Assembly: GCA_902826455.1 (NCBI GenBank)
Contig: CADEEV010000047.1
Span: forward strand, 1-35,302
DNA: 35,302 bases
Source of the DNA: an uncultured Acidobacteriota bacterium
Lineage (GTDB): Bacteria > Acidobacteriota > Vicinamibacteria > Fen-336
Direction of reading: 5' to 3'
Each line of letters starts with the position of its first letter. Position 1 is the stretch's first letter. A model generated the notes under the pieces. That model was not told the DNA's origin, did not search any database, and saw only the letters and a program-made list of their open reading frames with translations. A program made the translations under genes and the position numbers. Below, piece after piece: positions 1,142 through 3,162 of this stretch.

Positions 1142-1351
1142 CTAGGCGGTCTTGCGCTGGGCCGTGGGCTTCGTGACCTTGCCCGAGCGCAGGCAGCGGG
1201 TGCAGACCTTGACGCGCTTCTGGGTGCCGCCGGTCACGGCGCGAACCTTCTGGAGGTTCGGATTGAACCGCCGGTGCGTCACGTTGTGGGCGTGGCTGAC
1301 ACGGTTGCCGAACTGGGGCCCCTTGCCGCAGAGATCACATCGTTGAGCCAT
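1142..1351 (-). CDS. rpmB: 50S ribosomal protein bL28
   Basis: A 69-residue protein with the bL28 layout: an N-terminal [16 protein letters not shown], the [17 protein letters not shown] core and a C-terminal [10 protein letters not shown]. The two CxxC pairs (CDLC, CTRC) show the zinc-binding form of L28, rather than the zinc-free form. It is a structural protein of the large ribosomal subunit. A Shine-Dalgarno-like GAGGAG lies 9 bp before the ATG. It stands alone on the minus strand with its own promoter (see 1407-1434), and points toward ridA. Confidence 0.97.
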
Positions 1352-1554: not shown

Positions 1555-3162
1555 ATGGTCCAGTTCAACTTCAGCGAACGGACCATCAAGGCGAAGGTGG
1601 TCTACTACGGCCCCGCCCAATCGGGGAAGACCACCAACCTGGAACAGATCCATCGGATCACGGATCCCCAGGCCAACAACCGTCTGATCTCCCTCAACAC
1701 CGCCCAGGACCGGACCCTCTTCTTCGACCTGCTGCCCTTCAGCCTCGGGGCCGTCTCCGGCTACGACTTCAAGGTGCAGCTCTACACCGTTCCGGGTCAG
1801 GTCCAGTACAACGCCACCCGTCGCGTGGTGTTGGCGGGAGCCGACGCCGTGGTGTTCGTGGCGGATTCCCGCAAGGGCATGTTCAAGGAGAACCTCGCGG
1901 CCTTCGAGAACATGAAGGTCAACCTGCTGGCGAACCGCCTGGTTCCCGAGAAGGTGCCGCTGGTCCTTCAGTACAACAAGCGCGATCTCGACGACCTTCA
2001 GTCGGAAGCCGAGATGAAGAAGGCGCTCAACCCCTGGAACCGGCGCTCCCACCTGGCCGTGGCGGCCCGGGGAGAAGGCGTCATCGAGACCTTCGTGGCC
2101 GTCGTGCAGGAAATGCTCACGGCCATCGCGGTGAAGTACAACCTCAAGGAGAAGGGCCTCGACCCGTCGAGCGCGCCGGAAGTGGTCGCCGAGGCGTTCT
2201 CGAGCCTGCTCAAGGCCGCGGGCCCGCCGCCCCCGATCGCCGACAAGCCCGCAGGCAAGGTCATCCTTTCCCAGGCGACCAACGTCGACCACGCGGCGCC
2301 GCTGCAGGCCACGCCCGAGACGGGTCTCGTCTCGGAGGAGCTGCTGCACCGCGCGATCCGCTCGAACGTCGAGCTCGCCGAGGCCCTGGCCGGGCTCGTC
2401 CATGACATGAACCTGGGGCTGGGGACGATCCTCTCCCACGCCGAGCTGCTGATGGTCTATCGCGAGGACGCCCGCGAGAAGCGCCAGGGTGCGATCGCGT
2501 CGATCCAGCACGAGGCGTCGCGCCTGCGCAAGATCATGCAGGAGCTGGGGCAGGCGGGAGTGGCGGCCGGCGCCGCACCCTCGCCGCGCGCGCCCACGGC
2601 GCCGCCGTCCGCGCCCGTGGCGCCGCCGCCTCGGGCCATGACCCCGGTGCCGCCCTCGGCCCCGACGCTGCTGGGGACGGCGCCGTCGCTGCCGCCGGCA
2701 CCGGCCGTGCCCGCCGGGCCGCTGCTCGAGACCACGCTGTTGGCGGCGGTCGAGTCCGCGAAGCCCGTCATCGAGCCGCGGCGCGTCGGCGTCGAGCTCC
2801 GCTTGATCCCGGGCACGCCGCTTCCCAAGTGCCCCGCTCCGACGCTCCAGCGCGCCATGGTCGCGCTGTTCGATGCCGTCTCGGTCATGTCCCCGTCGGG
2901 ATCGAGTGCCGTGGTCCGGGCCGAGAAGAAGCCCGTGCTGCTCCGGGGCCGCGACGGCCAGCAGGTGAAGCGCGACTTCCTGATGCTGGCCGTGTCCCAC
3001 GGCGGCACGCTCTCGCCCGAGGACCAGCAACGGATCCTGGGCGGCTCCGACACGTCGCCGCTCGGAGAAACCTGCCGCCTGGTGCGCGAGATGGGGGGCT
3101 TCGTGCGCTTCGCCCCCCTGCCCTCCGGCGGGCTCGAGACCCGGCTCTTCCTTCCTGCCTGA
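1555..3162 (+). CDS. MglA-type small GTPase fused to a degenerate histidine-kinase core
   Basis: A 535-residue protein, against about 195 for ordinary MglA. Residues 1-195 are the GTPase: P-loop GPAQSGKT (19-26), the MglA-typical TVPGQ in place of DxxG (78-82), and NKRD (141-144). MglA proteins act as polarity and motility switches with MglB partners. Residues 260-333 resemble a histidine-kinase dimerisation helix pair, with LVHDMNLGLGTIL placing His283 where the phosphoacceptor sits. A Pro/Ala linker (340-390) leads to a HATPase-like region (390-535) in which the N-box asparagines and the DxGxG ATP-lid glycines are not conserved (ALFDAVSV, VSHGG), so it probably does not bind ATP normally. 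The GTPase assignment is firm; the kinase-like assignment is by eye. No MglB/Roadblock gene is nearby. Confidence 0.85.
   Translation: MVQFNFSERTIKAKVVYYGPAQSGKTTNLEQIHRITDPQANNRLISLNTAQDRTLFFDLLPFSLGAVSGYDFKVQLYTVPGQVQYNATRRVVLAGADAVVFVADSRKGMFKENLAAFENMKVNLLANRLVPEKVPLVLQYNKRDLDDLQSEAEMKKALNPWNRRSHLAVAARGEGVIETFVAVVQEMLTAIAVKYNLKEKGLDPSSAPEVVAEAFSSLLKAAGPPPPIADKPAGKVILSQATNVDHAAPLQATPETGLVSEELLHRAIRSNVELAEALAGLVHDMNLGLGTILSHAELLMVYREDAREKRQGAIASIQHEASRLRKIMQELGQAGVAAGAAPSPRAPTAPPSAPVAPPPRAMTPVPPSAPTLLGTAPSLPPAPAVPAGPLLETTLLAAVESAKPVIEPRRVGVELRLIPGTPLPKCPAPTLQRAMVALFDAVSVMSPSGSSAVVRAEKKPVLLRGRDGQQVKRDFLMLAVSHGGTLSPEDQQRILGGSDTSPLGETCRLVREMGGFVRFAPLPSGGLETRLFLPA

Follow-up and report, generated by a model that had tools for sequence, protein, structure and literature searches.

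The window, as we call the whole stretch of 35,302 nucleotides that was analysed, contains an open reading frame of 535 codons plus stop that joins an MglA-type small GTPase to a histidine-kinase-like pseudokinase, the combination proposed from sequence and now borne out by profile and AlphaFold matches to both the DHp and the CA fold (Table 1). The GTPase is followed by a DHp-like helical hairpin and a CA-like domain that has lost the N box and the G1 box and carries an invariant, family-specific K-P-V-L hairpin (residues 459–462). The gene is divergent from rpmB and lies after relA/spoT and ridA, with a BrxC-type thiol protein as a further neighbour. The order relA/spoT-ridA-rpmB-fusion is common to several orthologues, and this is a housekeeping stretch only, with no signalling partner gene next to the fusion. 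A long stop-free frame on the opposite strand was taken for the usual shadow in GC-rich DNA. Orthologues of the same architecture occur in the other 16 genomes searched, which are Acidobacteria/Vicinamibacteria metagenome-assembled genomes (MAGs) from the family and order (class Vicinamibacteria) to which the window belongs. Because these orthologues are full-length, the fusion is real and not an assembly artefact, which rules out a chimeric MAG. One orthologue, L014 (G009:C689:78-1791), is frameshifted within its C-terminal half, through either sequencing error or pseudogene formation.

Table 1 Features of the fusion gene and its divergent neighbour
Feature	Position	Strand	Basis or remark
rpmB (ribosomal protein L28), divergent neighbour	1163..1351	-	translation; conserved order in relatives
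MglA-pseudo-histidine-kinase fusion, whole gene	1555..3162	+	orthologues in 16 other genomes; purifying selection per folded domain
MglA-type GTPase domain	1555..2139	+	residues 1-195; phmmer to MglA structures, residue table
DHp-like helical hairpin	2326..2568	+	residues 258-338; sub-threshold HisKA, hhalign, model helices 2-44 and 47-82
Linker helix signature VSEELLHRAIRSNVELAEAL	2329..2388	+	residues 259-278; common to MglA-GAF-HK proteins
His283 codon (CAT), acceptor position	2401..2403	+	unconserved among orthologues
CA-like (HATPase-fold) domain	2722..3159	+	residues 390-535; model, VIA-align, hhalign, invariant columns

Residues 4–191 align to structures of Myxococcus xanthus MglA without a gap (phmmer, E 5e-52), and the two proteins therefore share residue numbering. 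The P-loop GPAQSGKT (19–26), the intrinsic Arg53, Thr54, a TVPGQ motif with Gln82 and NKRD are all present; the key positions are invariant, with R53, T54 and T78-V-P-G-Q82 found in 16/16 orthologues. An intrinsic Arg beside the G2 Thr together with a TVPGQ G3 motif defines Group 1 MglA (PMC4316618), and since these residues are kept the domain is expected to be active, with predicted GTP binding and hydrolysis by the Group 1 mechanism. At 535 amino acids the protein falls outside the 150–240 residues of stand-alone small GTPases. At position 21, which corresponds to Ras Gly12, every one of the 16 window orthologues has Ala or Pro and 32 of the 37 kinase-bearing relatives described below have Ala, whereas 46 of the 51 other MglA proteins of the set have Gly; position 84 is Gln in the window group (group A), unlike in most other MglA proteins. 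The G21V variant of Thermus thermophilus MglA has a kcat about sevenfold lower (reported in PMC3000849), so by analogy slower GTP turnover is possible in the window protein. The prevalence of Ala21 in kinase-fused MglA proteins, and of Gly in most others, possibly marks a change in GTP turnover across the whole clade.

The C-terminal module is barely visible to standard domain models. Pfam HisKA matches residues 275–331 at 20–23 bits, below the gathering score of 26.9 (E 6e-4 to 8e-5), and Pfam finds neither HATPase nor GAF in the window protein. When a profile of 16 orthologues was compared with one of 28 genuine histidine kinases using hhalign, with 20 column-shuffled controls, the two aligned along the whole length of the module with a score of 116.6 (shuffled maximum 19.3), and the DHp and CA parts alone scored 48.9 and 75.5 (shuffled maxima 14.8 and 19.5). 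The AlphaFold model of residues 258–535 (pLDDT 85) has a long helix hairpin followed by the Bergerat order of elements; the full-length model is of moderate confidence only (pLDDT 71). Compared with solved structures by VIA-align, the model matches histidine-kinase CA domains at Z 15–17.5, the list being led by the pseudokinase DivL (Z 17.5, 135 residues, 2.4 Å), with which the kinases VanSA, HprS and CusS are tied in Z, and Foldseek also returns histidine kinases. The module thus has the DHp hairpin and Bergerat CA fold of a histidine kinase. The sequence-only reading had allowed that residues 260–535 might lack a HisKA/HATPase match or form an unrelated helical domain; neither is the case, the latter being ruled out by the profile scores and the predicted fold.

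The damage to the N and G boxes noticed in the window protein is real and family-wide. Throughout the aligned group A sequences, Ala or Gly stands in place of the N-box Asn and His, Asn or Gln in place of the G1 Asp, so that none has the pair of residues for ATP binding, while both residues are kept in 16/16 genuine kinases of the same alignment. His283, which had been singled out as a retained phospho-acceptor, does align with the acceptor His of kinases, but it is private to the window genome: the acceptor position is His in one of 16 orthologues and is Arg in 10, Gln in 4 and Glu in 1 of the 15 other intact ones. These substitutions rule out phosphorelay through His283 as a conserved mechanism and make the proposed role as a receiver of phosphate unlikely. 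With His283 unconserved, and with neither the N-box Asn nor the G1 Asp left in any orthologue aligned, phosphotransfer by this protein family is unlikely, as judged from its residues.

The genome encodes four further MglA-type proteins. A canonical MglA of 200 amino acids adjoins MglB, and three other roadblock-type matches are found in addition to this mglB-mglA pair. Two further MglA-type proteins carry other C-terminal extensions, and a 721-residue frame, the group D protein, has a GAF-like region and another degenerate kinase core. The group D locus (G000:C1:220494; L023:1001-3121, L284) represents a distinct second MglA fusion with a coil and a GAF-like region, and in its relatives L018 and L046 both the N-box Asn and the G1 Asp are present. 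When the profiles of the window group and of group D were compared directly, no similarity emerged, so the two groups have decayed either separately or too far. Apart from the two fusions, this taxonomic order has two conserved MglA paralogue groups (L021, L022 and relatives, L025–L060), with the N-termini MVLFNYSTKELT and VVFFNYTTMQMT, which bear Pro-rich or uncharacterised C-terminal extensions of about 180–300 residues.

The fusion is not a lone oddity, and in this respect the context given by the sequence-only reading did not hold. Proteins of about 630–850 amino acids with the order MglA-helix-GAF-HisKA-HATPase occur across Acidobacteriota, and a survey of the phylum combined with retrieval of long MglA frames yielded 37 MglA proteins of 629–848 residues whose histidine-kinase core scores up to 246 bits. 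The full catalytic set (acceptor His, N-box Asn, G1 Asp and Gly) is kept in 24 of them, so that MglA-GAF-histidine-kinase fusions are common in the phylum and most of those examined are catalytically intact by residues. GAF, HisKA and HATPase_c were confirmed by Pfam in five representatives, and a Pfam small-GTPase family scored above or near cut-off in four. In 12 genomes of other phyla reached through the loci, the clear MglA matches lie in short frames (209–296 amino acids).

A maximum-likelihood tree of the GTPase domains contains a 97/97 branch that places all the histidine-kinase fusions, the window group and group D, together with eight related proteins in which no kinase core was detected, on one side, and the stand-alone and other long MglA proteins on the other. 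The window GTPase therefore shares a subclade with the kinase-fused forms. The linker helix of the window protein (EELLHRAIRSNV) also aligns with 21 linkers of the histidine-kinase fusions (hhalign E 2.5e-6, score 32.2; shuffled maximum 12.7). This helix precedes GAF in the fusions and runs directly into DHp in the window group, and the window protein has no GAF between linker and DHp. The simplest account of these relationships would be a single origin of the fusion, after which the window lineage lost GAF and catalysis. On this account the window protein is a GAF-less, kinase-dead descendant of the MglA-GAF-histidine-kinase family, and the more important lead lies with its kinase-competent relatives.

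Of the 12 surveyed loci that keep the acceptor His, 9 have a CheY-like receiver no more than about 4 kb away, usually directly upstream, against one of five in the comparison (Fisher p 0.10; p 0.02 with groups A and D each counted as one further locus), and an association of a kept His with a neighbouring receiver is suggestive only. Around intact MglA-GAF-histidine-kinase genes at L277:5813-11288, L281, L278, L269 and L273 we observed a cassette that comprises a SpoIIE-type phosphatase, a CheY-like receiver, the fusion, an RsbW-like HATPase, a HisKA protein and a STAS protein, and that resembles a partner-switching module tied to a polarity GTPase; in some of these loci one or more of the last three components went undetected. 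None of the cassette genes (SpoIIE, receiver, RsbW, HisKA, STAS) is found beside the window gene.

We propose, with a probability of roughly 60%, that the window protein dimerises and serves as a pseudokinase scaffold of the DivL kind, under the control of its GTPase. Among the three suggestions of the sequence-only reading, the dimer scaffold is the best fit. The MglA head would alternate between GDP and GTP states, and the DHp-like hairpin would pair two chains, and with them two GTPase heads, into a homodimer. No phosphate would be transferred by the CA-like domain and the DHp surface, which would serve instead as a protein-binding arm; most plausibly, and by analogy with DivL, this arm would dock a response regulator or a separate histidine kinase. 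Such docking would couple the GTP state of MglA to a two-component pathway with no phosphotransfer in cis. The protein probably descends from an MglA-GAF-histidine-kinase that lost both GAF and catalysis. The proposal builds on the architecture, the predicted fold, the absence of catalytic residues, the signs of purifying selection and the placement among the kinase-bearing fusions in the MglA tree, and extends them to a putative dimer, a putative docking partner and a putative direction of signalling. Against it, a partner is not encoded beside the gene, the receiver-docking surface of DHp is not demonstrably conserved, and the C-terminal module is under looser constraint than the GTPase.

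An alternative that we regard as unlikely, although the strongest of the rivals, is that the module regulates only its own GTPase, acting in a GAP-like, GDI-like or autoinhibitory manner in place of MglB and without a partner kinase or receiver. No mglB adjoins the fusion gene in the neighbourhood inspected, and with Ala or Pro at position 21 and Gln at position 84 in group A, hydrolysis or the response to MglB may differ; the fused GTPase keeps Arg53 and Gln82. However, the genome retains MglB beside the canonical MglA, as well as the other roadblock-type matches, and the kinase-bearing relatives, mostly with Ala21, have receivers nearby, which indicates outward signalling.

The pattern of selection bears on a less probable reading, in which the C-terminal module is a functionless remnant in decay. 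The loss of catalytic residues, the loose linkers and the frameshift in L014 would suit such a remnant. Yet many residues are invariant, clustering in the linker helix, the K-P-V-L hairpin and the C-terminal strands, and close-pair dN/dS is 0.02–0.42 for the CA-like and 0.07–0.40 for the DHp-like domain, compared with 0.03–0.16 for the GTPase, so that purifying selection acts on every folded domain of the fusion and preserves the dead one. Taken over all pairs (0<dS<2.5), the median dN/dS is about 0.47–0.48 for DHp and CA, and it is this value that points to looser constraint than in the GTPase. With low close-pair values (0.02–0.42) across two families, decay is disfavoured. Least probable is that His283 actively accepts phosphate from another histidine kinase in this organism only: the residue occupies the exact acceptor position and is followed by Asp, where kinases usually have Glu, but a conserved role cannot rest on a residue that is Arg, Gln or Glu in 15 other intact orthologues, and Arg to His needs a single-base change.

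Broader and more tentative is a second proposal, to which we give slightly less than even odds: that in Acidobacteriota a Ras-like polarity GTPase has become the built-in input of active histidine kinases, its GTP state gating a phosphorelay in one protein (MglA-GAF-histidine-kinase with a CheY-like receiver), and that the window branch kept this GTPase-to-kinase wiring as a catalysis-free pseudokinase. If so, the GTP state would gate phosphorelay within a single Acidobacteriota protein, in some lineages beside SpoIIE, RsbW-like and STAS genes. In known systems, polarity GTPases and two-component kinases communicate via separate proteins (Frz-RomR-MglA, conservons). With both parts in one chain the coupling of GTPase and kinase becomes directly testable, and the series from kinase-competent to kinase-dead proteins in one clade offers a natural test of how a histidine kinase is used after catalysis is lost. 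The expectation that such a fusion had not been described agrees with a full-text search of the open literature, in which we found no published MglA-histidine-kinase fusion (subscription papers lay beyond its coverage). Proteins longer than 240 amino acids were left aside in a 2014 census of prokaryotic small GTPases (PMC4316618), which could therefore not have classed these fusions.

Compared with the Group 1 MglA proteins of M. xanthus and T. thermophilus, the window protein has the same P-loop, Arg53, TVPGQ with Gln82 and NKxD in a gap-free alignment, but those proteins are stand-alone, of about 195 amino acids, with Gly21 and mostly Phe84, whereas it has Ala21, Gln84 and a C-terminal extension of 340 residues. 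Caulobacter DivL has a similar kinase-dead DHp and CA fold and is the best solved match to the CA part (Z 17.5), at a sequence identity of about 21%. This pseudokinase uses its kinase core to sense a phosphorylated receiver, binding DivK~P (PMC4211667), and so provides a precedent for signalling without phosphotransfer (PMC4211667); binding of a receiver by the window protein would be by analogy only. DivL differs in its PAS input domains and in its acceptor site, which is Tyr, while the window protein has an N-terminal small GTPase. The Acidobacteriota MglA-GAF-HisKA-HATPase proteins (for example, L283:7225-9408 and L277:7547-9667) share with the window protein the MglA clade, the linker helix and the DHp-CA order, but they keep GAF and, in 24 of 37, the catalytic residues. 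The actinobacterial conservons (CvnA histidine kinase, CvnB roadblock, CvnC and CvnD GTPase) likewise combine an MglA-family GTPase with a histidine kinase in a single pathway (PMC4316618, PMC13343842), but as separate proteins with a Group 2 GTPase, whereas in the window protein a Group-1-type GTPase and a dead kinase share one chain. What is new is thus the combination of MglA and kinase in one chain; its parts are known, and in conservons they are paired as separate proteins.
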